A stretch of 64,000 nt of DNA from Opitutus sp. ER46 (GTDB lineage Bacteria; Verrucomicrobiota; Verrucomicrobiia; Opitutales; Opitutaceae): positions 310,001 through 374,000 of the forward strand of contig NZ_QAYX01000023.1 in NCBI RefSeq assembly GCF_003054705.1, given 5' to 3'. The notes under the pieces were generated by a model that was not told the origin of the DNA, searched no databases, and saw nothing but the letters and a program-made list of their open reading frames with translations. A program made the position numbers and the translations under genes. Positions within the stretch are counted from its first letter, which is position 1. Each line of letters starts with the position of its first letter. This document shows positions 13,068 to 64,000 of the stretch, piece by piece.

Positions 13068-14161
13068 GCGAAAGGGACGGGGGGCACGGCGATGCGCCGG
13101 GCGGCCAGTTGCGCGCGCAGGCAGAGCTCGGCCGCCTTGAACGCGTGCGCCTGCGTCATCGCGTGCTCCGTGCGGTTGAGGCAGTCGAGGATCAGTTGGC
13201 CGAAGAAGCGGAAGCCAACCTGGCCGGTGACGTTGAGCCGGTGCTCCCCCTTGGCATCGACGACGTACACGTTGTCGCCGGCCTTGTCTCGGCCGACGTC
13301 GATGTACTTGCGGAGCTCGAGGTAGCCGTCGGTGCCGAGGATGAACGTGCGGCCATCGCCCCAGGTGCCGAGGCCGTCGGGGTTGAACCAGTCGATGCGG
13401 ACGTAGTTCGACGTGCCGTTGTCGCCGAGGAGCGACGCCTCGCCGAAGTCCTCGAACTCCGGGTACTCGGGGTTGCCGAAGTTGGCGACGGCGGCCTGGG
13501 TGACCGAGGCATCCGTCGCGCCGCTGTAGGTGAGAAACTGCTCGAACTGGTGGCTCCCGATGTCGCACAGGATGCCGCCGTATTGCTCCTTCTCCCAGAA
13601 CCACGCGGGCCGGACGTTCTTGCTCAGGCGGTGCGGCCCGAGGCCCAGCACCTGGATCACGCGACCGATGCCACCGGCGGCGACAAAGTCGGTGGCGAAC
13701 ATCGCGGACTCCACGTGCAGCCGTTCCGAGTAATAGACCGCGTACTTGCGGCCGGTGCGGGCCACGGCCGCCTTCGCGGCGTCGAGCTGGCTGAGCGCCG
13801 TGAACGGCGTCTTGTCGGTGAAGTAGTCCTTGCCGGCTTCCATGACGCGCATGCCGATCTGGCCGCGCTCGGCCGGGATCGCGGCGGCCGCCACGAGCTT
13901 CACGTCGGCGTCGGCAAGGATTTCGTCGAACGAGCGCGCCACGCGCACGTCCGGGTACTTGGCGCGGAACGCGGCCACCTTCTGCGGATCCGGGTCGTAC
14001 ACCCAGCGCAGCGTCGCGCCGGCCTCGATCAAGCCGTTGCACTGGCCGTAGATGTGACCGTGCTCCAGAAAGGCGGCGGCGAAGACGAACTCGCCGGGGC
14101 CCACGACCGGGCCGGGTTTGGACGCGGGCAGGAACGGCTGGAGGGTGGAATCGGCGGCCAT
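13064..14161 (-). CDS. Gfo/Idh/MocA family oxidoreductase
   Basis: NAD(P)-dependent dehydrogenase-like protein of 365 residues. A Rossmann domain occupies the first ~150 residues, with HGHIYGQCNGLIEAGATL near residue 35 (split motif HGHIYGQ and GATLRWVYDPDP), and DYFTDKTPFTAL containing the conserved lysine. A C-terminal alpha/beta domain contains GGILCDIGSHQFEQFL, where GxHxxD-like residues usually act in catalysis. There is no Tat signal. Such proteins act on sugars, inositols or glycosides; the substrate cannot be assigned. It overlaps the adenosyltransferase gene downstream by four bases. Confidence 0.88.
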   Translation of the reverse strand: MAADSTLQPFLPASKPGPVVGPGEFVFAAAFLEHGHIYGQCNGLIEAGATLRWVYDPDPQKVAAFRAKYPDVRVARSFDEILADADVKLVAAAAIPAERGQIGMRVMEAGKDYFTDKTPFTALSQLDAAKAAVARTGRKYAVYYSERLHVESAMFATDFVAAGGIGRVIQVLGLGPHRLSKNVRPAWFWEKEQYGGILCDIGSHQFEQFLTYSGATDASVTQAAVANFGNPEYPEFEDFGEASLLGDNGTSNYVRIDWFNPDGLGTWGDGRTFILGTDGYLELRKYIDVGRDKAGDNVYVVDAKGEHRLNVTGQVGFRFFGQLILDCLNRTEHAMTQAHAFKAAELCLRAQLAARRIAVPPVPFA

Positions 14162-14231
14162 GGTGACCGGAAGCGTGGTCGGAACGTGCTGCGCCGCAAC
14201 CGGGAACCGGTTCGCCCGGCTCTGCCGCCCG

Positions 14232-14807
14232 CTACTTGCGCCGGCCGGTGGCGGCCTTCGTTTCCTTGGCGAGCGCTTTCACGGCGTCTTCCACGGACGC
14301 GTAGACCTTCTTGGCCATCCGATCGATGAAGAGGACGCCGTTGAGGTGATCGACCTCGTGCTGGATGCAGCGCGCGAGCAGGCCATCGCAGGTGAGGACG
14401 TGCGGCACGCCATGCTGGTCCTGGAACTTCACCGTGATCCGCTCCGGGCGCTTGATGTCGCCGCGAATCTTCGGAAACGAAAGGCAGCCTTCCTCGTAGT
14501 CCACCTCGGGCGTGCCCCGGGCCACCGACACCTCCGGGTTCACCAGGGCCATCGGCATGAACAGCTCGATCGGAGGACGCGCGCCATCGAACTCCCACTG
14601 GAAATCCGCGTCGGCTTCGCGCAGATCGACGACGCAAAGTTGCAGCGCCTGACCGACTTGCTGCGCCGCGAGCCCGATGCCACCGGCTTCGTGCATCGCC
14701 ACGACCATGTCCTCCGCGAGCTTCTCCAGCGCGGAATCGAACTTTTCAATTTTTACACCCTTTCGGTGCAAAACCGGCTCGTTGTAGTGAACAATTCGGA
14801 GGGACAT
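14232..14807 (-). CDS. def: Peptide deformylase
   Basis: Metalloenzyme that removes the formyl group from nascent protein N-termini. It has 191 residues with all three signatures: GIGLAA (43-48), EGCLS (106-110, metal-ligand cysteine) and QHEVDH (149-154, two metal-ligand histidines and the catalytic glutamate). A Lys-rich C-terminal tail extends beyond the catalytic core. The start ATG at 14807 gives the standard MSLRIVHYNEPVLHRKG N-terminus. The gene diverges from the membrane protein gene at 14874, leaving 66 bases for two promoters. The methionyl-tRNA formyltransferase gene often found next to def is absent here. Confidence 0.96.
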   Translation of the reverse strand: MSLRIVHYNEPVLHRKGVKIEKFDSALEKLAEDMVVAMHEAGGIGLAAQQVGQALQLCVVDLREADADFQWEFDGARPPIELFMPMALVNPEVSVARGTPEVDYEEGCLSFPKIRGDIKRPERITVKFQDQHGVPHVLTCDGLLARCIQHEVDHLNGVLFIDRMAKKVYASVEDAVKALAKETKAATGRRK

Positions 14808-49055: not shown

Positions 49056-49215
49056 ACGCGGAAAGGAAAAAGCCTGCGCGGGGACTGGACTCCGCTGGCG
49101 GAGGGGAGGCACGCATTGAGGTAGTCGAAAACCGGGTTCGCTTAAGCCATAAACCCCGGCCGAACGAAAGCCTTTCTTTGGCGTTGGCGGGCCGAAGCCG
49201 GATGGCCGAATGGCC

Positions 49216-49352
49216 AGAGGCCGGAGGCCGGAAGCCGGAAGCCGGAGGACGGAAGCCTGAAGCTGACGCCGGAGGACGGAGGCCTGAAGCCAGAAGTCAG
49301 AAGCTTGAAAACGGAACACGGAAGTCGGAGGATGGTTTCAATGTCGGAGGTC
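49216..49352. repeat. Degenerate heptamer tandem array, family RGARGYC
   Basis: About 20 units, almost all 7 bases long (one of 6 at 49265-49270 and one of 5 at 49341-49345). Typical units are GGAAGCC, GGAGGCC, GGAGGAC, AGAAGTC and TGAAGCC. It is purine-biased on the + strand. It has the same unit type as the array at 26134, and again lies in a divergent spacer. The flanking DNA does not resemble the flanks of the other copy. Confidence 0.88.
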
Positions 49353-49462
49353 AGGCCGGTGGTGCTCAGAGCATCTCTGTGAACTCCTCCGGTCTCAGTG
49401 CGCTGGATCGGCGGCCAGATGTCGCTTGCGAGGCCCCGCGGCGGCGCATTGGCTCGCCGCCC

Positions 49463-50611
49463 ATGGCCGCCGCCGCCGAAACCCCGAGCCAGCCGCCGGT
49501 CGCATCGCATGATGAACCGGGGACGCTTTCGTATTGGGGCCTGATCCGGCGGCGCTTTGGGCAGCACCGGCTGGCGGTGGCGTCACTGTTCCTGCTGGCC
49601 TTCTTCTACGTGCTGGCGGCGGGGGCGGAGTTTTTCGCGCCGTATTCGCGGCAATGGCGCGATCTGGCGCACTCGTATTGTCCGCCGCAGTTGCCGCGCT
49701 GGTCGTGGCGTGACGGCTTCCACGTGCCGGCGGTGCGCGTCGCCATCGATCCGGTCACCTACAAACGCACGTACGTGGAGATGGAGGCGGAGCGGATCGC
49801 GCTGGGGTTTTTCGTGCGGGGCGAACGGTGGCGGCTGTGCGGGCTGGTGACGACGGACCGGCACTTTTTCGGACCGCTGAATCCCGTGGGGACGCGGGCG
49901 GACGGCACGCGCCACACGTTCTACTTTCTCGGGGCGGACAAGTACGGCCGGGATATCTTCAGCCGGCTGGTGTACGGCGCGCGCATCAGCCTCTCCGTGG
50001 GACTGATCTCGATCGCGATCACGTTCGTGCTGGGCGTGGTGATCGGCGGCATCTCCGGCTATGTCGGGGGCGCGGTGGATACGGCGATCCAGCGGCTGAT
50101 CGAGGTGGTGAACGCGTTCCCGCACATTCCGCTCTGGCTCGCGCTCGGGGCGGTGATCCCCGTCGGCTGGCCGCCGCTCTTCACCTATTTTGCGATCACG
50201 CTGGTGCTGAGCCTGCTGAACTGGACCGGGCTGGCGCGGGTGGTGCGCGGCAAGATCCTGGCGCTCCGGGAGGAGGACTATGCCACGGCGGCGCGGCTCC
50301 TCGGCGCGAGTCCCGGGCGCATCCTGTTCCGGCACCTGCTGCCGGGTTTCACGAGCCACATCATCGTCGTGCTGACGATGGGCGTACCGGCGATGATCCT
50401 GGGCGAGACCTCACTGTCCTTCCTCGGCTTCGGCCTGCATGCCCCGATCGTGAGCTGGGGCGTGATGCTGCAGGACTGCCTCAATCTCCAGACGGTGGCC
50501 AACTATCCGTGGCTGCTGATGCCGGTGGCTTTCATCGTGCTGACCGTGCTTGGTTTCAACTTCCTCGGCGACGGGCTGCGCGACGCGGCCGATCCGTACG
50601 GCGGGCGGTGA
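49463..50611 (+). CDS. Oligopeptide ABC transporter permease (OppC/YejE-like)
   Basis: Inner-membrane permease of 382 residues from ATG 49463. An N-terminal helix (RLAVASLFLLAFFYVLAAG, about 36-54) is followed by a large extracytoplasmic region (to ~165) and five C-terminal helices. The BPD signature is present: ARLLGASPGRILFRHLLPGF. The long first loop resembles YejE or peptide permeases of the OppC group. Two ATPase genes follow, but no OppB-type permease or substrate-binding protein gene is in the window, which is unusual for this transporter type. The start at 49463 is preferred over 49178, which would translate the heptamer array. Confidence 0.88.
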   Translation: MAAAAETPSQPPVASHDEPGTLSYWGLIRRRFGQHRLAVASLFLLAFFYVLAAGAEFFAPYSRQWRDLAHSYCPPQLPRWSWRDGFHVPAVRVAIDPVTYKRTYVEMEAERIALGFFVRGERWRLCGLVTTDRHFFGPLNPVGTRADGTRHTFYFLGADKYGRDIFSRLVYGARISLSVGLISIAITFVLGVVIGGISGYVGGAVDTAIQRLIEVVNAFPHIPLWLALGAVIPVGWPPLFTYFAITLVLSLLNWTGLARVVRGKILALREEDYATAARLLGASPGRILFRHLLPGFTSHIIVVLTMGVPAMILGETSLSFLGFGLHAPIVSWGVMLQDCLNLQTVANYPWLLMPVAFIVLTVLGFNFLGDGLRDAADPYGGR

Positions 50612-50613
50612 CG

Positions 50614-50636
50614 CCGCCCGGCCGGGGGCCGGGCGG
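50614..50636 (+). terminator. Strong GC hairpin after OppC-like gene
   Basis: CCGCCCGGCC (50614-50623) and GGCCGGGCGG (50627-50636) form a 10-bp stem with loop GGG, three bases after the stop. No T-tract follows; it may pause or stabilise RNA rather than terminate. Confidence 0.5.
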
Positions 50637-50725
50637 AGTTGAAAGTGGAAAAGTTGAAAGTGGGAAAGTTGCAGGTTGGAAAGGCGGAGGTTGGAAGGTT
50701 GCAGGTTGCATAGTTGCAGGTGGCG
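50637..50725. repeat. GTTG-type short tandem array, 7-9 base units
   Basis: About 12 units beginning GTTG or GTGG, such as GTTGAAA, GTTGCAG (three copies) and GTTGGAAG. Unit length is usually 7 but sometimes 8 or 9. Like the other arrays it is purine-rich on the + strand and intergenic, but its unit is different. A few more GGTTGC/GGTTGA words occur at 50780-50815. Confidence 0.75.
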
Positions 50726-50931
50726 AACCGCGGAGGGTGGGAACCGCGAAAGGCGCGAACGGACGCGAAAACGGAGACGAGGTTGCGGGACGGAAGGTCG
50801 CAGGTTGAGAACGGTGGAGGGGGCTCGGCGGAGCGGCAAAACGCGCGTTGCGCTTGGACGGGGGCGCGTATTGTGTCCGCCCGAGTTTTCCGACCGTTGC
50901 TGTTTTGCCCCTCGCGATTGTCGCGCCCCTG

Positions 50932-51804
50932 ATGCCCTCCGTCCCTCCCTTTGCCTCCGGCGACCGGTTCGCCCCCGCAGCGCCGCTGCTGGAGGTGCGG
51001 AACCTGCGCGTGGCGCTGCCGGCGGCGGGGGGCTTGGTGGGTGCGGTGCAGAACGTGTCCTTCGCGCTGGAGCGGGGGCGAACGCTGGCGCTCGTGGGAG
51101 AATCGGGCAGCGGCAAGACGATGACGGCGCTGTCGCTGCTGCGGATCCAGCCGCCGGGCAGCCAGACGAGCGGTCAGATCCTCCTGCGGTCGCGGCGGGA
51201 AGGAGACATCGACCTCGGGCACCTCGATGAAAAGTCGGGCCTCCTGTACAAGGTCCGCGGCGGGCTGATCAGCATCATCTTCCAGGAGCCGATGACGGCG
51301 CTGTCGCCGGTGCACACGATCGGGCGGCAGATCGACGAGGCGATTCTCCTGCACTACGACGTCAGTCCGGCGGCGGCGCAGCGGCGCACGCTGGAGATGC
51401 TGGCGAAGGTGGGCATCACCAACGCGGACGAGCGGTATCACCAATTTCCGCACGAGCTTTCGGGCGGGTTGCGCCAGCGGGCGGTCGTGGCGATGGCGCT
51501 GGTCGGCCGGCCGGAGCTGCTGATCGCGGACGAGCCGACGACCGCGTTGGACATGACCATGCAGGCGCAGATCCTGGGGCTGATCAAAGGACTGCAGCGG
51601 GAGATCGGCTGCGCGGTGCTGCTGATCACGCACGATTTCGGCGTGGTGGCGCAGATGGCCGACCAGGTGGCGGTGATGCACCACGGCGAGATCGTGGAGC
51701 GCGGCGATGTGCGCACGGTGCTCCGGCAGCCCCAGCATCCGCACACGCGGGCGTTGCTGCATGCGCTGCCCGGGCAACGCCGGCGGCGGGGGGCGGGCGT
51801 GTGA
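50932..51804 (+). CDS. Peptide ABC transporter ATPase (OppD-like)
   Basis: ATP-binding subunit of 290 residues from ATG 50932. Walker A is GESGSGKT, the Q-loop is IIFQEPMTALSPVHT, the signature is LSGGLRQRA, Walker B is LLIADEPTTALD, and the switch His is in ITHDFGVVAQM. The C-terminal oligopeptide-transporter helix HPHTRALLHALPG is present. Its last bases overlap the next ATPase gene (GTGA). It energises transport with the downstream ATPase and an OppC-type permease. Confidence 0.92.
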   Translation: MPSVPPFASGDRFAPAAPLLEVRNLRVALPAAGGLVGAVQNVSFALERGRTLALVGESGSGKTMTALSLLRIQPPGSQTSGQILLRSRREGDIDLGHLDEKSGLLYKVRGGLISIIFQEPMTALSPVHTIGRQIDEAILLHYDVSPAAAQRRTLEMLAKVGITNADERYHQFPHELSGGLRQRAVVAMALVGRPELLIADEPTTALDMTMQAQILGLIKGLQREIGCAVLLITHDFGVVAQMADQVAVMHHGEIVERGDVRTVLRQPQHPHTRALLHALPGQRRRRGAGV

Positions 51805-52697
51805 AGGCGCCCGGCGAAATGCGCGCGCCGAAGGCGCCGCTGCTGGACGTCCGCGGGCTGTCGAAGCATTTCCCGGTGCCGGCGCGCGGGCTGCGGGCGC
51901 GGGTGGCGGGAGTGGTGAAGGCGGTGGACGACGTGAGCTTCGCGCTCGCGCCGGGCGAATCGCTCGGGCTCGTCGGCGAGAGCGGCTGCGGCAAGACCAC
52001 GGTGGCGCGGTGCATCCTGCGGGCGATGCACGCGACGGCGGGCGAGGTGTGGTTCCGGTTGCCGGACGGGCGGACGGTGGACCTCGCGCGGCTCAGCGAG
52101 CGCGAACTGATCGGCGTGCGCCCGCACGCGCAGATGGTGTTCCAGGATCCCTTTTCCTCGCTCAACCCGCGCATGACGGTGCGCGACATCGTGGCGGAGC
52201 CGCTGGTGATCCATCGCCTCGCCCGCGGCCGGGAGCTCGACGACCGCGTGGCGGAGATGCTGCGGCGCGTGGGGCTGAGTCCGGACGTCGGTCCGCGCTA
52301 TCCGCACGCGTTCAGCGGCGGGCAGCGGCAGCGCATCAGCATTGCGCGGGCGCTGATCATGCGGCCCGCGCTGGTGGTGTGCGACGAGGCGACGTCGGCG
52401 CTGGACGTCTCGGTGCAGGCGCAGGTGCTCGATCTGCTGCTCGAGCTGCAGCAGGAGTTCGGGCTGACGTATCTGTTTGTCGCGCACAACCTGAGCGTCG
52501 TGCACGATTTCTGCGACCGGGTGGCGGTGATGCGTCGCGGCCGGATCGTGGAGGAGGCGCCCACGCCCGAGCTCTTTGCGGCGCCGCGGCATCCGTATAC
52601 CAGGCTGCTGCTCTCGGCGGTGCCGTCGGCGGATCCGGACGTGCCGATGAATCTCCACATCGGCGACGAGCTGGCGCGGCTTGACGCGGAAGCCTGA
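51801..52697 (+). CDS. Peptide ABC transporter ATPase (OppF-like)
   Basis: Second ATP-binding subunit, 298 residues from a GTG at 51801. Walker A GESGCGKTT, Q-loop MVFQDPFSSLNPRMTV, signature FSGGQRQRISIARAL and Walker B LVVCDEATSALD are all intact, followed by FVAHNLSVVHDFCDR. The C-terminus has HPYTRLLLSAVPSADPD, typical of OppF/DppF. The four-base overlap with the OppD-like gene indicates coupled synthesis of a heterodimeric ATPase. Confidence 0.93.
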   Translation: MKAPGEMRAPKAPLLDVRGLSKHFPVPARGLRARVAGVVKAVDDVSFALAPGESLGLVGESGCGKTTVARCILRAMHATAGEVWFRLPDGRTVDLARLSERELIGVRPHAQMVFQDPFSSLNPRMTVRDIVAEPLVIHRLARGRELDDRVAEMLRRVGLSPDVGPRYPHAFSGGQRQRISIARALIMRPALVVCDEATSALDVSVQAQVLDLLLELQQEFGLTYLFVAHNLSVVHDFCDRVAVMRRGRIVEEAPTPELFAAPRHPYTRLLLSAVPSADPDVPMNLHIGDELARLDAEA

Positions 52698-52753: not shown

Positions 52754-54040
52754 TCAGGCGCGTTTCACGACCTCGCGGGCGGCGGTGTCGACGGGGCCGG
52801 GGGCGGAGAGATCCTTCGTGCCCTTGGCGCCGAGGTCGGCGAGCTTGCGGGCGCCGGGCAGGAGCATGCCCTCGAAGGAGCCGACGGCGGTGTTGTACGC
52901 CTTGGTGGCGGTCTCGAGACCGCGGCCGACCTTCTCGAGGCTGTCGGCGAAGTTGGCGACGCGGTCGTACACCGCGCGGCCGAGCGAGCTGATCTCCTCG
53001 GCGTTGCGGGAGACCGCCTCCTGGCGCCAGCCGTAGGCGGCGGCCTTGAGCAGCGCGATGAGCGTGGTGGGCGTGGCGAGGAGGACGCGGCGGGCGAGGG
53101 CGCGGTCGAGCAGGAGCGGGTCGGCCTGGAGCGCGGCGCTGAGGAAATGGTCGCCGGGGAGGAAGAGCACGACGAACTCCGGCGCGGGCTGAAACTGCTC
53201 CCAGTAGTTCTTGGCGCCGAGGGCGTCGATGTGGCCGCGCACCTTCTGCGCATGCTCCAGCATGCGGGCGGCGCGGACGGCTTCGTCGGCGGCCTCATGC
53301 GCGGCGCGGAACGACTCGATGGGCGCCTTGGCGTCGACGACGATGCGCTGGCCGCCGGGGAGGCGGACGACGAGGTCGGCGCGCAGGCTGCCGGCGGTCT
53401 CCTGTTCGCTGAAATCGCAGTACGGCAGCATCTCGGCCATCTCGACGACGCGGCGGAGCTGCAGTTCGCCCCAGCTCCCGGCGTAGGTGGTGGAACGCAG
53501 CGCGGTGGAGAGGCGGGCGGCCTCGGTCTGCAACTGGGTTTGCGCGACGCCGAGGGCCTTGAGCTGTTCGCCCAGCGCGCCATAGGCCCCGGCGCGGGCC
53601 TGCTCGATCTCGCCGATCTTCTGGTCGACCTTCGCGAGCGATTCGCGAATGGGCGACACCAGCGCCTCGACGGCCTGGCGCCGCTGCTCGAGATCGCCGA
53701 GCGATTGTTGCTGCAGGTGACTGAAGGCCTGGCGCGCCTGCTCGAGAAAATCCGCGCGGTTCATGCGCAACGCATCGGCGGAAAGCGCCTTGAACTCGGT
53801 GACGAGCCGTTCATGCGCGGCGCGCTCGGCCGAGAGTTGCGTGTTGGCCTCGGCGCTCGCGGCGGCCAGGCGCGTCACCTCGGCACGCGCGACCGCCAGC
53901 TCGGCGGCCAGGCGGGCGTTCTCCTCGTCGCGGGCGCGCCCGCGTTCGCGGAGGGCGGCTTCGCGCGAGCGGAGTACCAGCCAGGCAAGCACCGCGCCCG
54001 CGGCGGCGGAGACGAGAAGGAACACCACCGAAATTTCCAC
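52754..54040 (-). CDS. rmuC: DNA recombination protein RmuC
   Basis: Protein of 428 residues from GTG 54040. It has an N-terminal membrane anchor (about 3-22, VVFLLVSAAAGAVLAWLVL), a coiled coil (about 25-150) and a C-terminal PD-(D/E)XK-type nuclease-like RmuC domain (WGELQLRRVVEMAEM, RLPGGQRIVVDAKAPIES, PEFVVLFLPGDHFLSAAL, LLATPTTLIALLKAAAYGW). RmuC limits inversion at short inverted repeats; notably, this window is rich in repeats. The start at 54040 is preferred to 54097 because it begins just before the membrane helix. It is divergent from the signalling operon that follows. Confidence 0.93.
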   Translation of the reverse strand: MEISVVFLLVSAAAGAVLAWLVLRSREAALRERGRARDEENARLAAELAVARAEVTRLAAASAEANTQLSAERAAHERLVTEFKALSADALRMNRADFLEQARQAFSHLQQQSLGDLEQRRQAVEALVSPIRESLAKVDQKIGEIEQARAGAYGALGEQLKALGVAQTQLQTEAARLSTALRSTTYAGSWGELQLRRVVEMAEMLPYCDFSEQETAGSLRADLVVRLPGGQRIVVDAKAPIESFRAAHEAADEAVRAARMLEHAQKVRGHIDALGAKNYWEQFQPAPEFVVLFLPGDHFLSAALQADPLLLDRALARRVLLATPTTLIALLKAAAYGWRQEAVSRNAEEISSLGRAVYDRVANFADSLEKVGRGLETATKAYNTAVGSFEGMLLPGARKLADLGAKGTKDLSAPGPVDTAAREVVKRA

Positions 54041-54171
54041 GCAACCACCCCTACGGCAGCCCTCGGGCGAGGCAACCTCTGATGCGTGCCTTGACACTCA
54101 AAACCTCGACCTGCAAACAGCTAAGGCTTCCGCCAGCTTCAACGGACCCCGCCTATCTGTCCTTCGCCTGC

Positions 54172-55311
54172 ATGTTGACCGAGAAATCACCTGCTGCCGT
54201 GGTCGAAAAACCGCTGGTCCTCGTCGTGGACGACGAGTACGGACCGCGTGAATCCATCGCCTTCTCCCTGTCGGCGGAGTTTGCCGTGGATACGGCCGGA
54301 CGGGCGCGGGAGGCGCTGGCGAAGGTGAACGAGCGGGCATACGCGGTGATCGTATTGGATATCCGGATGCCGGAGATGGATGGCATTCGCACGCTGCAGG
54401 AACTGCGGAAGGTGGATCCGCACGTTGCGGTGATCATGCTCACCGGCTATGGGACGCTGCAGACGGCGCAGGACGCGATTCTCGCCGGCGCCAACCAGTA
54501 TCTGCGCAAGCCGCCGGATATTCCCGAGTTGCTGGAGGGGGTGCGGCGTCAGGCGCAGGGCACGCGGCTGCGCCGCGCGCAGGCGCAGGCCATGAAGGAT
54601 GCGCAGGAGATGAACGTGGCGCTGAAGCGCGAGATCCAGCAGAACGAGCCGCAGATCTGGCAGGCGCGGGCCTCGGTCGAACTCGTCCACGATCTCAACA
54701 ATCCGCTCACCGTGGTGATCGGCTATGCCGGCCTGCTGGCGGAGGAGGCGCGGCCGCTGACGCAGCGCGATCCGACGCTTGCCAAGAAGCTGCTGGAGTA
54801 CTCCGGCATGGTCGAGAAGGCGGCCGAATATTGCCACCACCTGTCGGAGAACTGGCGCTTTGCCTCCAAGCAGGTGCCGCAGTTCACGACGGTGGACCTG
54901 GTCCAGATCGCGCAGGAGGTGCGGCAGGTGATCTTCTTCGGGAACGCGGCCATTGAACTGGGCGGCGACGCGCGCGCGCGGGTGCGGGGCTCGAAGTTCG
55001 AGCTGATGCGCGTGTTTCAGAACCTCTTCAAGAACGCGCTGGAGGCGGGGGCGTCCCGGCTGGCGGTGACGTTCACCGCGCTGGGCTCGCAGATCGAGGT
55101 GACGATTGCGGACAACGGCCCGGGCATGGACGCGGAGCAGTTGAAGCGGGCGATGCACGGCGGGTTCAGCAGCAAGGCCACCGGCACGGGCCTCGGCCTG
55201 AGCATCTGCCGGCACCTGGTGGGCACCCACGGCGCGACGTTTGCGCTGGAGTCGATGCCCGGCAAGGGGACGACCGCGCGCCTGGTATTCCCGATGGCGG
55301 CCCCGGAATGA
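54172..55311 (+). CDS. Receiver-histidine kinase protein, first gene of overlapping operon
   Basis: Cytoplasmic protein of 379 residues with a receiver domain at the N-terminus: D20-D21, phosphoacceptor D63 in VLDIRMPEMDG, T91 and K113. A coiled-coil linker precedes a HisKA-type dimerisation helix with phosphoacceptor H173 (VHDLNNPLTVVIGYAGLL). The ATPase domain is complete: N box (FQNLFKNALEAG), G1 (DNGPGMD) and G2 (GTGLGLSICRHLVGTHG). There is no membrane sensor. Its stop overlaps the next start (ATGA). It may act as a phosphorelay node receiving from another kinase of the operon. Confidence 0.9.
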   Translation: MLTEKSPAAVVEKPLVLVVDDEYGPRESIAFSLSAEFAVDTAGRAREALAKVNERAYAVIVLDIRMPEMDGIRTLQELRKVDPHVAVIMLTGYGTLQTAQDAILAGANQYLRKPPDIPELLEGVRRQAQGTRLRRAQAQAMKDAQEMNVALKREIQQNEPQIWQARASVELVHDLNNPLTVVIGYAGLLAEEARPLTQRDPTLAKKLLEYSGMVEKAAEYCHHLSENWRFASKQVPQFTTVDLVQIAQEVRQVIFFGNAAIELGGDARARVRGSKFELMRVFQNLFKNALEAGASRLAVTFTALGSQIEVTIADNGPGMDAEQLKRAMHGGFSSKATGTGLGLSICRHLVGTHGATFALESMPGKGTTARLVFPMAAPE

Positions 55312-56510
55312 AGCGGCGCCGCGTCAAGATCACCGGCATCGGCCCGGTCACGCCGGCCGGCATAGGGCGGGAATCTTTCTGGCGGGGCATCCTGGAGCCG
55401 GTGAGCCGCGTGCGCGTGGCGGCCTCGATTCCGCCGGAGGACGGCACGTTCGTCGCCGCGGAGGTGCCGGATTTCCAGCTCGAGCGCCACGTGCCGGGCG
55501 TGTCGGGGAAGCGGATGGCGCGGCACACGCAGCTGGCGATCGCGGCGGCGCAGCTGGCGCTGCAGGACGCGGGGCTGAGCCTGGCGGCGCTGCGCGGGGT
55601 GAACCCGCTCGTGGTGGTGGGCGCGTCGCTCATGGACTTTGGGGCGATCAACCGCGGGATGGACATGATCATGCAGGTGGGGCGCATGACGGGGATTCCG
55701 GCCTCGGTCTTCTCGGCCTCGGTGAGCACCATCGGCGGCACGCTGGGCGAGATCATCGGCGGCACGCCGCGGGTCATGGCGCTGCAGAGCGCGTGCTGCT
55801 CGGGGCTCGATGCCATCGGCCACGCGATGCAGCGGATTGCCGAAGGCGAGGCGGAACTGGCGATCTGCGGCGGCACGGAGGCGCCCCTGTATCTGCACCC
55901 GATGCTCGAATTGTGCATGGCGGGGTTCTCGCCGGAAAACCTGGAGAACCCGCAGGCGCAATGCCGGCCATTTGACCGCTGGCGGACGACGGGGGTGATC
56001 GGCGAAGGCGCGTGCCTGCTCGTGCTGGAGCCGGAAGAGAGCCCGCGGCCGGGTTATGCTTTCGTCGACGGCTACGCCTTTGTGTCGGACCCGGTGGGGG
56101 CGCTGGCGGAGGGGCTGCGCGAGTCGATTCGCCTGGCGCTGGCGAATGCGCGGTTGCGGCCGGCGGAGATCGAGAGCGTGAGCGCCTGGGGGCCGGGGCA
56201 CCGGGCGGTGGATGCGGCGGAAGCGCGGGCGTTGCGCGAAATTTTCGGCGCCGGGCTGGCCGACCTCCCCGTGACCTCGATCAAGGGGGCGATCGGCAAT
56301 CCGCTCGGGGCGGCGGGGGCAATTCAGACGGCGGCGGCGGCACTGGGGCTGCGCGACGCCATGCTGCCGCCGACGGTGAACTGGAAGTATCCCGATCCCG
56401 CGTGCGCGCTTAACCTGAGTGCCCAGCCCCGGCACGTGACGCATCGCACCGCGCTCATCAACTCACACGGCCTGTCCGGCACGAACGCATGTCTGGTATT
56501 GGCAGCGTAA
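55308..56510 (+). CDS. Ketosynthase-fold protein with altered active site
   Basis: Protein of 400 residues with the FabF-like thiolase fold. The nucleophile region is kept: SACCSGLDAIG with Cys163 as the expected nucleophile. Both catalytic histidines of KAS I/II are replaced: HGTG-like His is Trp294 (SAWGPGHRAVD) and the GH-LLGAAG His is Asn331 (GAIGNPLGAAG). Lys326 and the glycine-rich end NSHGLSGTNACLVL remain. It should not condense normally and may bind an acyl group or acyl-carrier protein. It lies between two histidine kinase genes, overlapping the first by 4 bases and the second by 22. Confidence 0.85.
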   Translation: MKRRRVKITGIGPVTPAGIGRESFWRGILEPVSRVRVAASIPPEDGTFVAAEVPDFQLERHVPGVSGKRMARHTQLAIAAAQLALQDAGLSLAALRGVNPLVVVGASLMDFGAINRGMDMIMQVGRMTGIPASVFSASVSTIGGTLGEIIGGTPRVMALQSACCSGLDAIGHAMQRIAEGEAELAICGGTEAPLYLHPMLELCMAGFSPENLENPQAQCRPFDRWRTTGVIGEGACLLVLEPEESPRPGYAFVDGYAFVSDPVGALAEGLRESIRLALANARLRPAEIESVSAWGPGHRAVDAAEARALREIFGAGLADLPVTSIKGAIGNPLGAAGAIQTAAAALGLRDAMLPPTVNWKYPDPACALNLSAQPRHVTHRTALINSHGLSGTNACLVLAA

Positions 56511-58501
56511 TCTTCAATCCGACGCTCACCGCGGCCGCGGCGGCGCTGGGCGTGGGCTTTGCCGCGGTGTGGGCCAACCCCCGGCGGCCGGTGAACCGGG
56601 CGTTCTTCCTGGCCTCGGCGCACGTCGCGACGTGGCTGACCCTCTTCTACCTGACGGTGCGGATGGAGGAAGGGCTGCCCTGGCTGCGGGCCACGACCGC
56701 GGTGGGGGCGTTCTTCCCGCTGCAGCTCTGGCTGGTGCGCGACGCGATCTGCGATCCCGGCCCGCTGCGGACGTTCTTGCTGCGCCGGTGGTACTGGGTG
56801 GCGCTGGTGACCGCGCTGGGCATGCTGCCCTTCACCTACTGGTTCATCCCGGCCCATTCGACGGCGGAGCAGGAGGTGTATGGGAGCGGGTATTACGTCT
56901 ACATGCTCGGCATCGTTTCGGCATACGTGGCGGTGGCGGCGGCGACGGTGCAGGCGGTGCGGGTGCAGACCGGCGTGAAGCGTCTGGAGCTGCGCATCCT
57001 CCTCATCGGCGGCTGCATCGCGGCGATCGTCATCGTGGCGCTGATGGTGGGGCGCACGGTTTCCGGCGTGCGGTGGCTGGTCGGGCTGCAGCCGCTGGTC
57101 ATCCTCGTGTTCTACGTCGGCATGGTGGTGGCGATCACGACGGGCCGGGTGTTTGATGCGCGGCAGATCCTGCTGCTCGCGCTGAAGCGGGTGGTGCTGG
57201 TGGGCGTGGTCTCGCTTGCCGCCTACCTGCTGGACCGGCTGTTGACCTTCTGGCTGAACGATTACCTGGCGCTGTACGTGACGGTGGGACTCGCCCTGTG
57301 GTTTGCCGCCGAGGTGGGCTGGCGGCTTGACCGGTGGATGCAGTTCTATCCCGAGGCGGAGGTGGCGCGTCAGGCGGCGCACGCGGTGGCGCTGCGGGAG
57401 AACCGGGTGGAGCGTCTGGAACGGGGTTTCGCCGATGTACTGAAAGGCTGGGGGCAGACCGACCTGGCGATCGTGCTGTATCAGGTGCGTGGGGACTCCC
57501 CGGGGCGGTTTGCCGCGGGGACGACGAACGATCCGGTGTGGGAGGCGATGCGGGACCTTGGCTGGGCCACGCCTGAGCGGCTGGCGCGCGAGCGCACCAG
57601 CCCGGCGCGGGTGGTGGTGGATGCCTTCCTGCAGGAGCGGCGGCTCGGCGCGCTCGCGTACGCGGACGGCCCGGCGATCGCGGTGCTGGTGGGCGTCGGG
57701 CAGGCGGCCTCGCGCCGGCCGTTCACCTATCCGCAGGTGACACAGTTGATGGAGCTGGCGACGATCATCGAGGGCGCCTTCGAGCGCGCGCAGCTCTTCG
57801 CGAAGGTTCAGCATGCCGAACAACTCGCGACGGTGGGCCTGCTGGGGGCGAGCCTGGCGCATGAAATCCGCAACCCGCTCGTCACGATCAAAACCTTCGT
57901 CCAGCTGCTGCCGGCGCATTACCAGGACGCGGCGTTTCGCGAGAAGTTCTTCCGGCTGATCGCCGACGAGGTGAACCGGATCGACCGCCTGACCGAGCAG
58001 TTGCTGGACCTGGCGGCGCCGCGAACCTATGCGGCGACGGTGGTGCACCTGCATCCGATCCTGCGGGCGAGCCTGGATCTCGTGGCGACGAAGGCCGCGC
58101 ACCGGAACGTGCAACTGGTGGCGGATTTCGCGGCCGAGCCCGACGTGGTGTACACGGATGCCGCGGCGGCGAAGCAGGTGATGCTGAACCTTTGCTTCAA
58201 TGCGATCCAGGCGCTGGAGACGCAGGACGAGCGGCCGCGGTGCGTGTGGGTGACCACGCGCAAACTGCCGAACAGCGTCGAGGTGGCGGTGACGGATACG
58301 GGGCCGGGCATCGCCCCCGAGGTGCTGCCGCGATTGTTCAAGCCGTTCCAGACCACCAAGTCGTCGGGTTTCGGACTAGGCCTTGCGATTTGCAGTGATA
58401 TCCTCACGAATCTGAACGCCAGCATCTCGGTCGACCCGCCTGCTCCCGGGCGAGGGGCGACCTTTCGCGTCATCTTCCCATGCCAACCCTCGTCATCCTA
58501 G
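56489..58501 (+). CDS. Seven-helix membrane histidine kinase
   Basis: Protein of 670 residues. The N-terminal ~280 residues contain about seven to eight transmembrane helices, a membrane-embedded sensor. A GAF-like region follows (about 300-430; LKGWGQTDLAIVLYQVRGD). The kinase core has phosphoacceptor H458 (SLAHEIRNPLVTIKTFVQLL), N box (VMLNLCFNAIQALE), G1 (DTGPGIAP) and G2 (GFGLGLAICSDIL). It resembles PrsK-type kinases that have multi-helix N-termini. Its start is inside the upstream ketosynthase-like gene (22-base overlap) and its end is inside the next gene (22 bases). Confidence 0.9.
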   Translation: MSGIGSVIFNPTLTAAAAALGVGFAAVWANPRRPVNRAFFLASAHVATWLTLFYLTVRMEEGLPWLRATTAVGAFFPLQLWLVRDAICDPGPLRTFLLRRWYWVALVTALGMLPFTYWFIPAHSTAEQEVYGSGYYVYMLGIVSAYVAVAAATVQAVRVQTGVKRLELRILLIGGCIAAIVIVALMVGRTVSGVRWLVGLQPLVILVFYVGMVVAITTGRVFDARQILLLALKRVVLVGVVSLAAYLLDRLLTFWLNDYLALYVTVGLALWFAAEVGWRLDRWMQFYPEAEVARQAAHAVALRENRVERLERGFADVLKGWGQTDLAIVLYQVRGDSPGRFAAGTTNDPVWEAMRDLGWATPERLARERTSPARVVVDAFLQERRLGALAYADGPAIAVLVGVGQAASRRPFTYPQVTQLMELATIIEGAFERAQLFAKVQHAEQLATVGLLGASLAHEIRNPLVTIKTFVQLLPAHYQDAAFREKFFRLIADEVNRIDRLTEQLLDLAAPRTYAATVVHLHPILRASLDLVATKAAHRNVQLVADFAAEPDVVYTDAAAAKQVMLNLCFNAIQALETQDERPRCVWVTTRKLPNSVEVAVTDTGPGIAPEVLPRLFKPFQTTKSSGFGLGLAICSDILTNLNASISVDPPAPGRGATFRVIFPCQPSSS

Positions 58502-60258
58502 CTACACCGGACACGGCGTTGGCGGATGCTTGGGAACGGCAACTACCTCCGGGACGCATCGCTCTCCGCCTCGCGGCGCAGAGTTTTCCCGCGGGCACGG
58601 CGCCGGGCTTTGCGGCGGTGGTGGTCCTCGACGCGGTGGCCGAAAGCACGCTGCCGGCGTCGCTGGCGCGTTGTCCAACGATCTTCGTGGGCGAACCGCG
58701 GAGCCTGCCGTTCGAGCAGGCGCGGATGGCGGGCCGGGCGCGGGCGTACCTGTCGTATGACGAGAGTGCCACGCGGCTGCGGGAGCTGCTGCCGCTGGTG
58801 GAGGAACTTGCGGAGAAGCAGACGCTGGTCGAGATGCTGGTCGACAAGGCGCGGCGGGCGGATCCGCCGCGACCGCTGGCGCGGCCGGGCCCGGTGGATT
58901 CGGCGGAGCTGTGGGACTTTCTCGAGGCGGCGGTGGAGAACCTAGAGTCGCGCGAGCGGCTGATGGCGGAGTTTCGCCGGGCCTCGCGGCATCTCCTGCG
59001 GGCTTCCCACGCGGTCTTCTTCCTGCGCGAGACCGACGGTTTTCGGGCGGATCGCGGCACGTCGTTCTTCGCGGTCGACGACCCGATGGTGGCGTTCTTC
59101 GAGACGCATCCGGCGGTGATCGACGGCAACAACTGGGATGGGCCGGCCGATCCCGTGGCCGAGCTGGCGGTGCGCAATCGCCTCGCGCTCTGGGGGGCGC
59201 GGCTGCTGGTGCCGGTGCACGACAACGGCCGGCTGCTCGGGCTGATCGCGCTGGGCGTGCGCGATGACGGTCAGGCGTACGACGAGAACGACCGGGTGCG
59301 TGCGGTGTTCTATGCGCGGCTGCTGCGGCATTTCCTGACGAAATCGGTCCAGTTCAGCCGCCTCAATGCGGTGGCGGATCAGGCCGGGCTGGGGGCCAAG
59401 TACCTGCCGGGCACGCTGGTGCTCGGGCCGAACGAGAACGCGCCGCGGCATGTGCCGCTCGTGGTGCGCGACCTGATCGGGCAGGTGCGGCGGACGCGGG
59501 AAGTCTGCCGCGTGGCGCCCTCGCCGGAGCAGCCCTTCCGGGCCTGCGCGGGCATGGTCGTCGAGACCGGAGGCGTGTGGGCTTTCTGGCAGGAAGCGAG
59601 CAGCGAGGTGCACGAGAACGAAATGCGCGAGCGGCTGGGCCGCCGCGCGCTGCTGCGGGATCTGGCGTTGACGCTGAGCCACGAGCTGGGGAACGCGCTC
59701 GTCTCGCTGGCGACGTTCCGCCACGCGAAGCCCGGCGAGACGGTGCCGCTGGCGCTGGTGGAGACGGTGCGGTCCGACATCGCGAAGCTGCAGGCGCTGA
59801 ATGACCATCTGGCGCTGATGCAGACGCTGCACGAGATCGAGCCGGGCGAGGTGGACGTGCGCGAGGTGGCCCAGACCCTGGCCGAGTCGCTCGGCGTGCG
59901 GGTCGAGGTTGGCCCGGATCCGGTGGTGCTGAAGGCGAGCCGGAAGCTGCTGGAGTTTGCGCTGACGGCGCTCGTCCGGACCGTGGGCGAGAATCGGCCG
60001 GACCACGGCCTGCGGGAGCTGGCGTTGAAGGTACGCTCCACCGGAACCGGTCCGGAGTTGACCGCGCTGCTTTCGCTGAAGGGCAAGAACCTCGAACTCG
60101 AGGGCATCCTGCCCGAGCCGGTGAACGGCGCGGTGCCGAACCAGGGCCGCATCGGGGTGTTTCTCGCGAAGGAGATTCTCCGGCTGCACAACGGCGAGAT
60201 CCACGCGGGGCCGGGACTGGAGGGGACGGAAATCCTCATTACGATCCGGAAATGGTGA
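58480..60258 (+). CDS. Receiver-like/GAF/kinase-like protein with degraded ATPase
   Basis: Protein of 592 residues. Residues 1-115 resemble a receiver fold (LVILATPD, VVVLDAVAES, TIFVGEP) but lack the acidic pair. Residues about 150-290 form a GAF domain (LLVPVHDNGRLLGLIALGV). A HisKA-like helix contains H401 (LTLSHELGNALVSLATF). The ATPase part is degraded: no DxGxG motif is present, and only a G2-like GRIGVFLAKEILRLHNGEI remains. It could accept or hold a phosphate without ATP use, like a phosphotransfer protein. It overlaps both neighbours (22 and 7 bases). Confidence 0.75.
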   Translation: MPTLVILATPDTALADAWERQLPPGRIALRLAAQSFPAGTAPGFAAVVVLDAVAESTLPASLARCPTIFVGEPRSLPFEQARMAGRARAYLSYDESATRLRELLPLVEELAEKQTLVEMLVDKARRADPPRPLARPGPVDSAELWDFLEAAVENLESRERLMAEFRRASRHLLRASHAVFFLRETDGFRADRGTSFFAVDDPMVAFFETHPAVIDGNNWDGPADPVAELAVRNRLALWGARLLVPVHDNGRLLGLIALGVRDDGQAYDENDRVRAVFYARLLRHFLTKSVQFSRLNAVADQAGLGAKYLPGTLVLGPNENAPRHVPLVVRDLIGQVRRTREVCRVAPSPEQPFRACAGMVVETGGVWAFWQEASSEVHENEMRERLGRRALLRDLALTLSHELGNALVSLATFRHAKPGETVPLALVETVRSDIAKLQALNDHLALMQTLHEIEPGEVDVREVAQTLAESLGVRVEVGPDPVVLKASRKLLEFALTALVRTVGENRPDHGLRELALKVRSTGTGPELTALLSLKGKNLELEGILPEPVNGAVPNQGRIGVFLAKEILRLHNGEIHAGPGLEGTEILITIRKW

Positions 60259-61202
60259 CGTCGGACACGCTGGGTGATCGGGTGCAGCGCTGGGCGGAAG
60301 GCGAGCGAAGGGTGGCGGCGTTGGTGCTGATTGGTTCACGGGCGCGGGCCACGCCGGATCCGCGCCTCGCGGCGGACAAGTATTCCGACTGGGATTATCA
60401 TCTCATCACTTCGGCGCCGGAGATGCTGCGGACACCCGACTGGATGGCGGCGGCGGGACTGCCGGCGCCGACGGTGTACGTGCTCCGGCTGGGCCGACTC
60501 GGTGCGGCGACGAAGGTGACGACGGTGGTGGCCGGCACGCTGATGGACCTGGTCGTGATTCCGACCGGCCGAATCCGTCTCCTGCGCTGGGCGTGGCGTC
60601 TGGGTTACGCGGCCCGAAATCCGCGGCTCTGGGAAACGCTGCAAGGACTCGCGGTGGTGCTCGCAGCGGGGCATCGCGTGGTGAAGGGCGGAGCGGAGTG
60701 GGTGAATTTCTACGCCCAGCTCGCCCGGGAGGTGCCGCCACCGCGGCTGGATGATGCGGCGGTCCGCCGGCTCGCGGACGGGTTTTACTGCGACTACTTG
60801 TCGACCCGGCAGAAGATCGCCCGCGGAGAACTCATCGCGGCGCAGCGCTGGCTGCACCACACCCTTGCCGACGTGCTCTTTCAGCTCCTGCACGAGCGGC
60901 GGCTGCGTCAGCGGGAAGTGTCGATGCCGGATGCGCGGCGGATGGAGCGCCTCGCGGATGCCGACACGCTGGCGGCCGCCCGGATCGAGGCGCGGCTGGA
61001 CGCCCGGGAACTGACGGCGGCCGTCGATACGGCGGCGCAGGCGCTGACCCGCGTGACCCGGGATCTGCTGGGCCCCGCGTGGCAGTGGCCGGAGGACCGG
61101 GTGTTCGAGGCCGGTGACGTCAGGCGTGAAGGCGCAGACGTGCGGGCGGCCCCCAGTTGCGGTGCTTCCTCTGGCGGCAAAGCGGCTTCGGAAGCTTCCT
61201 AA
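60252..61202 (+). CDS. Nucleotidyltransferase-domain protein
   Basis: Protein of 316 residues with a Pol-beta-type nucleotidyltransferase head: G28-S29-R-A and D46-x-D48 (KYSDWDYHLI) are the catalytic signature. The rest resembles aminoglycoside 6-adenylyltransferase-like proteins, with a helical C-terminal domain (about 180-270). It is the last gene of the overlapping signalling operon (7-base overlap). It could modify a small molecule or a protein of the system by adding a nucleotide; no substrate is visible. The C-terminal 30 residues are low complexity. Confidence 0.8.
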   Translation: MVTSDTLGDRVQRWAEGERRVAALVLIGSRARATPDPRLAADKYSDWDYHLITSAPEMLRTPDWMAAAGLPAPTVYVLRLGRLGAATKVTTVVAGTLMDLVVIPTGRIRLLRWAWRLGYAARNPRLWETLQGLAVVLAAGHRVVKGGAEWVNFYAQLAREVPPPRLDDAAVRRLADGFYCDYLSTRQKIARGELIAAQRWLHHTLADVLFQLLHERRLRQREVSMPDARRMERLADADTLAAARIEARLDARELTAAVDTAAQALTRVTRDLLGPAWQWPEDRVFEAGDVRREGADVRAAPSCGASSGGKAASEAS

Positions 61203-63492: not shown

Positions 63493-64000
63493 TTACTTAC
63501 CGGCCTTGAATAACTCGGCGATCACTTCCTCGAGGGGAATCTCCTCGATGGTGATGTCGGCGACGGGGCCGGTGCTGAGAATTTCCTGGGAGACGGCGAC
63601 GACATGCTCGGCGGGAACACGCAACGTGAACTTGCCATCCTCGGTGCGCGTGGTGGCGGCATAACGGGACTGCCAGGCATCCGGGAACGATCCCGCGCCG
63701 GCGGTGGTGGCCGGGACGAACGTGATCGTCTTCCGGCGCGCGCCGCCGGAGCTCTCGAGCCGGTCGAGGGCACCGTCGTAGATCTTGCGGCCGTGATCGA
63801 TGACGACCACGCGTTCGCACAGTTCCTTGATGTCGGCCATGTAGTGGCTCGTGAGCAGGATGGTGACGCGCCGCCGACGGTTGTAGTCCCGGAGAAAGTG
63901 TCGGACCGCCTTCTGCGACACGACGTCGAGTCCGATGGTGGGCTCGTCGAGGAAGAGCACGCGCGGCCGATGCAGCAGCGCGGCGATGAGCTCCATCTTC
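63493..64000 (-). CDS. ABC-2 type transporter ATP-binding protein (partial)
   Basis: C-terminal part of an ABC transporter ATPase cut by the window end; the start lies beyond 64000. Visible are the helix after the signature motif (MELIAALLHRPRVLFLDEPT), Walker B (VLFLDEPTIGLD), the D-loop and the switch histidine (ILLTSHYMADIKELCERV), followed by a ~90-residue C-terminal domain. The style matches NatA/ABC-2 ATPases for drug, polysaccharide or sodium export. It converges on the preceding kinase-like gene. Confidence 0.88.
   Translation of the reverse strand, partial: KMELIAALLHRPRVLFLDEPTIGLDVVSQKAVRHFLRDYNRRRRVTILLTSHYMADIKELCERVVVIDHGRKIYDGALDRLESSGGARRKTITFVPATTAGAGSFPDAWQSRYAATTRTEDGKFTLRVPAEHVVAVSQEILSTGPVADITIEEIPLEEVIAELFKAGK

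Follow-up and report, generated by a model that had tools for sequence, protein, structure and literature searches.

Which function would bring together, in one operon, a ketosynthase (KS), three proteins related to histidine kinases and a nucleotidyltransferase? The question is raised by a 64,000-nucleotide stretch of Opitutus sp. ER46 (contig NZ_QAYX01000023.1, positions 310,001 to 374,000; hereafter the window), which belongs to a genome of 5.7 Mb (G000) and in which five genes on the + strand, referred to by their products P1 to P5, overlap successively by 4, 22, 22 and 7 bases (Table 1). The original prediction, made from the letters of the window, had noted these overlaps, with which the open reading frame (ORF) coordinates agree, and had proposed a membrane or acyl-linked signaling system with nucleotidylation or protein contact as its output; it had called the ketosynthase dead. 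The results presented here indicate that the five genes are a conserved unit in Opitutaceae, that this unit derives from a locus more widespread in Verrucomicrobiota, and that P2 is probably a rewired acyl-enzyme rather than a dead one. The operon may thus represent one form of a more general system for making and sensing a fatty-acid-derived signal.

Conservation was analyzed in 37 loci of relatives, namely 17 named and 20 fetched stretches. The 17, found via P4, are metagenome-assembled genomes labelled Opitutaceae, Opitutae, Opitutia, Verrucomicrobiia or Verrucomicrobia; L053 and L057 are one copy, and the set holds 36 distinct gene-4 proteins. The order P1-P2-P3-P4-P5 is kept on one strand in 29 of the 37 loci. 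P5 is inverted and lies between P1 and P2 in two, contig ends interrupt four, and two (G004 and G034, both well-assembled genomes) contain P1-P3-P4 without P2 and P5. Of the 35 loci in which both gene 3 and gene 4 could be placed, 32 show them overlapping, 23 by exactly 22 bases (duplicate copy counted twice). Among 200 family genomes P2 was detected in 67, P5 in 74 and P4 in 73, a common set of 200 being assumed from the equal tallies. All three are present in 62 of the 81 genomes that contain any of them, in 59 of these 62 within 9 kb on one contig; in the 19 genomes with one or two of the three, contig ends may account for some absences, and in G054 the contig stops inside gene 3. A search of 80 family genomes gave a match in 28. 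Thus, the genes are not scattered in relatives, and they form a conserved unit with coupled junctions, beyond chance. The reading frame of P1 is open already from position 54082; the start at 54172 fits the relatives better, weakly so, their start codons having been chosen for closeness to the position expected. The starts assigned to gene 3 of L043 and gene 1 of L073 are incorrect. The alignments of P1 to P5 used below exclude short fragments and rows that were identical.

P2 matches both the N- and the C-terminal ketosynthase domain of Pfam (PF00109, 5e-30; PF02801, 9.3e-20), and shares with FabF (KAS II) the nucleophilic Cys163 and the Lys of the KxxxG motif. Its score against the NCBIfam fabF model, 230 bits, is below the cut-off of 493.75. 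The differences from FabF concern the active site. In all 31 operon KS orthologues the His303 position is Trp and the His340 position is Asn, Ser or Thr, so that the Cys-His-His triad is absent, and the position of the Phe400 gate is His (His387). Five residues, Cys163, Lys326, Trp294, His298 and His387, are each invariant (31/31). According to PMC7138838, the oxyanion hole of FabF is formed by the backbone amides of Cys163 and Phe400. The operon KS form a single clade in a tree (100/100), and together with the outgroup KS described below they are split at 100/100 from six ordinary FabFs of the window genome (unrooted tree; one long FabF branch); the window genome has nine KS matches, two of which were excluded from these FabF controls. 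Chain-length factors (KS-beta) carry Gln in place of the active-site Cys; this identity is ruled out for P2, the Cys being present in 31/31. Since the catalytic Cys is retained, and a new invariant His stands at the gate, the designation "dead" is not supported. The residue pattern argues instead for a rewired acyl-enzyme that has probably lost malonyl condensation.

The operon-KS profile was then used outside the family. At 1e-85 it matched 28 of 194 phylum genomes, 8 in the family and 20 outside. In the 16 outside surroundings that were fetched, we found a seven-transmembrane (7TM)-type kinase in 15, a kinase with pseudo-receiver (pREC), GAF and PAS domains in 14 and a receiver (REC)-kinase in 11; a FadL-type porin adjoins in 13 and a sigma-54 regulator is present in 8. 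FadL was confirmed by Pfam in the two outgroup loci scanned (2e-63 and 9.3e-50). We name this arrangement the verrucomicrobial KS-7TM-kinase locus, a term coined here. The converse search, with a 7TM kinase profile (E <= 1e-120), matched 35 of the 194 genomes; in 29 of these, from 16 families other than Opitutaceae, the kinase gene is immediately preceded by a KS. The other six are G219, G308, G312, G355, G303 and G359. In the first four the kinase match is no more than 550 bases away from where the contig ends, and part of a KS is visible in G308; G303 is considered below. With the A9 KS profile, a threshold of 1e-100 let in ordinary FabFs in 184 of the 194 genomes, so only its top 31 module-type matches were compared with kinase positions. 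The KS of L118 is missing from the ORF-based annotation of that locus, though the KS profile search places one there.

All 29 outgroup KS retain the Cys, and 27 have the gate His, the other two having Arg. None has both canonical His residues; 27 have one. The KS of L139, L140 and L144, from one outgroup family, keep His340 and have Asn for His303, the reverse of most others, which indicates that the two His were lost in different ways while the Cys and mostly the gate His were kept. Together with the residues invariant in the operon KS, this indicates a strong constraint around the nucleophile. It also bears on the idea that P2 is a catalytically dead scaffold for protein contact. Both catalytic His are absent from all 31 orthologues, as a scaffold would allow, and a Cys alone is no proof of activity; given the five invariant residues and the persistence of Cys and gate His in the outgroup, we regard a scaffold as hardly probable.

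Profile comparisons extended the relationship to the kinases. P1 and the outgroup REC-kinase match over their full length (E 4e-92), and P3 matches the outgroup 7TM kinase, which contains HisKA_7TM, over columns 8-669 (E 1.3e-102). P4 matches the outgroup pREC-GAF-PAS-kinase, here called F2, over columns 3-591 (E 2.4e-34); as a control, P4 against the 7TM kinase gave E 4.6e-17 with partial coverage. By these comparisons, and for P2 by the KS tree, P1 has its homologue in the REC-kinase of the wider locus, P2 in the KS, P3 in the 7TM-type kinase and P4 in the pREC-GAF-kinase, with the similarity running the length of each chain; the Opitutaceae operon is a derived version of that locus. It differs in lacking, in the loci examined, FadL and the sigma-54 regulator, in its strongly diverged third kinase and in an added LinB/ANT-like nucleotidyltransferase.

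The product list of the original prediction was borne out by Pfam and residue checks, and so was its statement that none of the five genes encodes a DNA-binding output. P1 contains REC (4.6e-26), HisKA (1.5e-06) and HATPase (1.3e-22) domains, and its residues D20, D21, D63, K113 and H173 are each conserved in 33/33 orthologues; a DNA-binding domain was not found in it. P3 has HisKA (7.1e-12) and HATPase (2.1e-21) domains and a hydrophobic N-terminus, and itself gives no Pfam HisKA_7TM match. Assignment of P3 to the PEP-CTERM/PrsK-PrsR (XrtA) system was rejected, as the match is confined to the kinase part and reaches 84.1 bits against a PrsK equivalog cut-off of 300. In P4, Pfam detects neither HisKA nor HATPase; fold matches cover residues 137-297 (GAF) and 376-592 (dimerization-phosphotransfer (DHp) and catalytic ATPase (CA) domains), and His401 is kept in 35/35. 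Where the N-box Asn would align, 29/35 have Thr or Ser and none has Asn; nearby, Asn505 is conserved in 34/35. P4 has therefore likely lost ATP binding; this is not proven, because placement of the N-box depends on the alignment and the conserved Asn505 is close by. Among the closest known systems are RetS and DivL, signaling kinases whose kinase activity is lost or altered. A wider P4 family beyond Opitutaceae was not obtained: 132 order genomes gave no full-length match, although five of them, all from a single other family, matched at the C-terminus (8e-25 to 1e-21), and none of 288 phylum genomes gave a match outside the family at 1e-20 when at most four candidates were scored per genome.

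The whole-chain fold of P5 is LinB/ANT-like, and its GS..DxD..D residues are intact. Identity is 15% to LinB lincosamide and 11% to ANT(6) aminoglycoside nucleotidyltransferases, and the score against PF04439, 18.4 bits, is below the cut-off of 22. In contrast to those enzymes P5 sits in a signaling operon, and no P5 match is present in 28 outgroup loci. An intact enzyme of this type might suggest biosynthesis under regulatory control as the role of the operon, in which P2 and P5 would build or tag an envelope lipid by acyl transfer followed by nucleotidylation, and P1, P3 and P4 would time the process. The joint absence of P2 and P5 from G004 and G034, which have P1, P3 and P4, also fits such a unit. 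We nevertheless consider it distinctly improbable: a gene-switching regulator is absent from the five genes, the conserved neighbors inspected (rmuC and an ABC ATPase) are not lipid enzymes, and the 28 outgroup loci gave no P5 match.

Further evidence comes from a second, sister module in the family, which was reached through P6, the protein encoded downstream of the operon. P6 has Asn at the H-box position where 12/12 aligned relatives have His, and retains its ATPase motifs. Relatives of P6 (22-29% identity) are present in 28 of 150 family genomes, the window genome included, and among these 28 only the window genome appears in the P4 or P2 lists. Surroundings were fetched for 12 of the 27 other genomes. 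These 12 stretches contain rmuC in 9, a REC-kinase in 11 and a FadL-like porin in 10. In 11 of the 12 (L158 and L160-L169; for example L158:9393-11096, + strand) the gene beside that for a 7TM-type kinase encodes a fusion of a LuxD-like acyltransferase with a methyltransferase. Pfam finds Acyl_transf_2 (2.2e-21) and methyltransferase (2.3e-13) domains in one chain; the NCBIfam LuxD match (5.3e-21) has 75 bits, far under the equivalog cut-off of 420, and the solved thioesterase 1tht, which we take to be the LuxD product, is matched at 6.3e-18. The fusion is a candidate fatty-acid methyl ester synthase. The 7TM kinase of L158 is followed by a gene (13111-14529, + strand) for a 472-residue protein that has no Pfam match and whose C-terminus looks by eye like a degenerate receiver; as a counterpart of P4 this third gene was rejected, since comparison shows that it is not P4-like. 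With two module versions in Opitutaceae, both mostly beside rmuC, the acyl enzyme is the exchangeable part.

P6 is thus probably a leftover of the sister module. Two other roles for P6 were considered and dropped. As a sixth operon gene it should recur, and no separate match above 60 bits was found in the 37 relatives' loci; as one half of a complementary split kinase, P6 lacking the His and P4 having the diverged ATPase, it should co-occur with P4, and of the 28 genomes with P6 the P4 list includes that of the window alone.

The sister loci also help to weigh a further interpretation, that P2 is an intracellular gauge, acylated by acyl-acyl carrier protein (acyl-ACP) and read by P3 or P4 through contact, so that the kinases would be informed of fatty-acid synthesis, with no diffusible signal. 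Loss of both canonical His together with a fully conserved Cys and a gate-loop His would suit a loaded, non-condensing protein; moreover, the KS gene directly adjoins the kinase gene, and the kinases have GAF/PAS-type domains. On the other hand, in the sister loci the enzyme position is occupied by the LuxD-like acyltransferase-methyltransferase in 11 of 12 cases and by an ordinary KS in L159, and catalytic enzymes fit synthesis better; the FadL that adjoins the locus in other families suggests something extracellular. We therefore judge a gauge to be unlikely, though it is the chief rival reading.

A precedent for synthesis and sensing together is the Phc system of Ralstonia, in which 3-hydroxy fatty-acid methyl esters are made and sensed by means of the methyltransferase PhcB, the kinase PhcS, the receiver-kinase PhcR and the receiver PhcQ, as described in PMC8578825, PMC6989110 and PMC11960443. 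PhcR is a REC-kinase without a DNA-binding domain (PMC8578825). If P2 is a signal enzyme, the phcB-phcS-phcR-phcQ operon and that of the window both combine an enzyme, a sensor kinase, a receiver-kinase free of DNA-binding domains and a further receiver protein. They differ in that the enzyme of the window is a KS and not a methyltransferase (Pfam finds no PhcB-type methyltransferase among the five proteins), and in the extra nucleotidyltransferase and the diverged third kinase. The LuxD-methyltransferase of the sister loci would suit a fatty-acid methyl ester, as in Phc. Ketosynthases that make diffusible signals (PpyS for photopyrones, and those for dialkylresorcinols) and KS with acylating activity are known (PMC4578411); PpyS has a Cys-His-Asn triad and works with a LuxR-type receptor, whereas the window combines a FabF-type KS with sensor kinases. 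For rhizobia, modulation of long-chain acyl-homoserine lactones outside the cell by a FadL protein is reported (PMC9938287).

Because of the Phc layout, the signal-making KS and the precedent of FadL and acyl-homoserine lactones, we favor an acyl-signal synthase and sensor cassette laid out like PhcB-PhcS-PhcR, to which we give nearly even credence. From the layout, the homology and the residue states we infer the following course of acylation, signal and phosphate. P2 would load an acyl chain from acyl-ACP on Cys163 and, without the two His used with malonyl-ACP, pass it to another acceptor, giving an acyl-derived signal. P3 would sense the product of P2 and phosphorylate the receiver of P1, which, having its own kinase, would exchange phosphate with His401 of P4. 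The latter, its ATPase function probably lost, would be a relay or a brake. P5 would nucleotidylate the acyl product or a partner protein, replacing the missing transcriptional output.

Several observations weigh against this cassette. No FadL match and no LuxD-methyltransferase match was found in the 37 operon loci or within the window; the outgroup FadL query also gave no match in the window genome, and of 6 family genomes tested 3 had weak matches only and the other 3 none. A sigma-54 regulator query gave receiver-only matches in the window and the 37 loci. By eye, P2 retains only part of the basic residues around the ACP-facing K65/K69 of FabF. The likeness of P1 and P3 to PhcR and PhcS is one of layout, not of sequence comparison. 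The link between P4 and F2 is profile-profile only, the P4 profile having missed F2 at 1e-20 in the 288 phylum genomes with at most four candidates scored in each. In the wider locus, similarity to the operon KS was the route to 20 of the 29 outgroup KS, which favors finding a shared site, and an adjoining kinase the route to 9, and no KS was found near the 7TM kinase of G303. Finally, the KS that L159 encodes upstream of its kinase is an ordinary Cys-His-His enzyme. In a separate search, a plasmid collection contained no near relatives of P1 or P2 and one partial match to the LuxD fusion protein.

Table 1. Features of the operon and its flanks (positions in the window)
Feature	Position	Strand	Description
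P1	54172..55311	+	receiver (REC) + HisKA + HATPase, intact; PhcR-like layout
P2	55308..56510	+	FabF-like ketosynthase; Cys163 kept, His303->Trp294, His340->Asn331, Phe400->His387, new His298
P3	56489..58501	+	sensor histidine kinase; homology to outgroup HisKA_7TM kinases includes the N-terminal region
P4	58480..60258	+	pseudo-receiver, GAF, sensor-like and DHp (His401 kept) domains, then a strongly diverged ATPase domain
P5	60252..61202	+	LinB/ANT(6)-like nucleotidyltransferase, acidic residues intact (GS..DxD..D)
P6	61449..63443	+	pREC-GAF-PAS histidine kinase, F2 type; H-box His -> Asn; outside conserved operon
rmuC	52754..54097	-	divergent left boundary; Pfam RmuC 9.3e-92; seen in 31/37 relatives' loci
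ABC-transporter ATPase	63493..63999 (cut by window edge)	-	convergent right boundary; seen in 24/37 relatives' loci

The identity of the right boundary was established on a full-length relative in L039 (ABC_tran, 4.6e-26). Upstream of rmuC, positions 49178-52697 (+ strand) contain what looks by eye like an oligopeptide-type ABC transporter set, with a permease and two ATPases. Near the operon, L039, L047, L050 and L051 (for example L051:489-3821, - strand) encode an extra kinase and a receiver protein whose C-terminal half has no assignment. In the operon copies of L070 and L071, which belong to one genus, gene 4 is broken; these copies are perhaps decaying.

The original prediction had known of no described system with this gene set. 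Literature searches of open-licence papers likewise found no description of the set; at the same time the layout is of a known kind, being close to that of the Phc operon, and the wider locus has a sigma-54 regulator in some families. Nor does the literature searched describe the KS variant, an enzyme position with interchangeable occupants or the nucleotidyltransferase.

A bolder proposal, which we put forward as doubtful, is that Verrucomicrobiota contain a wide, undescribed acyl-signal family in which altered FabF-type KS, ordinary KS and LuxD-methyltransferase fusions are swapped into a chassis of 7TM-kinase and REC-kinase with FadL uptake; its Opitutaceae version would do without transcriptional output and signal by way of a LinB/ANT-like nucleotidyltransferase, with the acyl signal or a protein as its target, and its KS, with a new Cys-His site, would transfer rather than condense. 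We know of no worked-out acyl-signal system in Verrucomicrobiota, although no search aimed at quorum sensing in this phylum was made. If the acyl-signal reading is true, the operon would contain an antibiotic-modifying nucleotidyltransferase fold within a signaling system, and a natural ketosynthase in which two catalytic His are replaced and the Cys is still strongly constrained; the locus would name a signal synthase, its receptor kinase and a relay together in Verrucomicrobiota.

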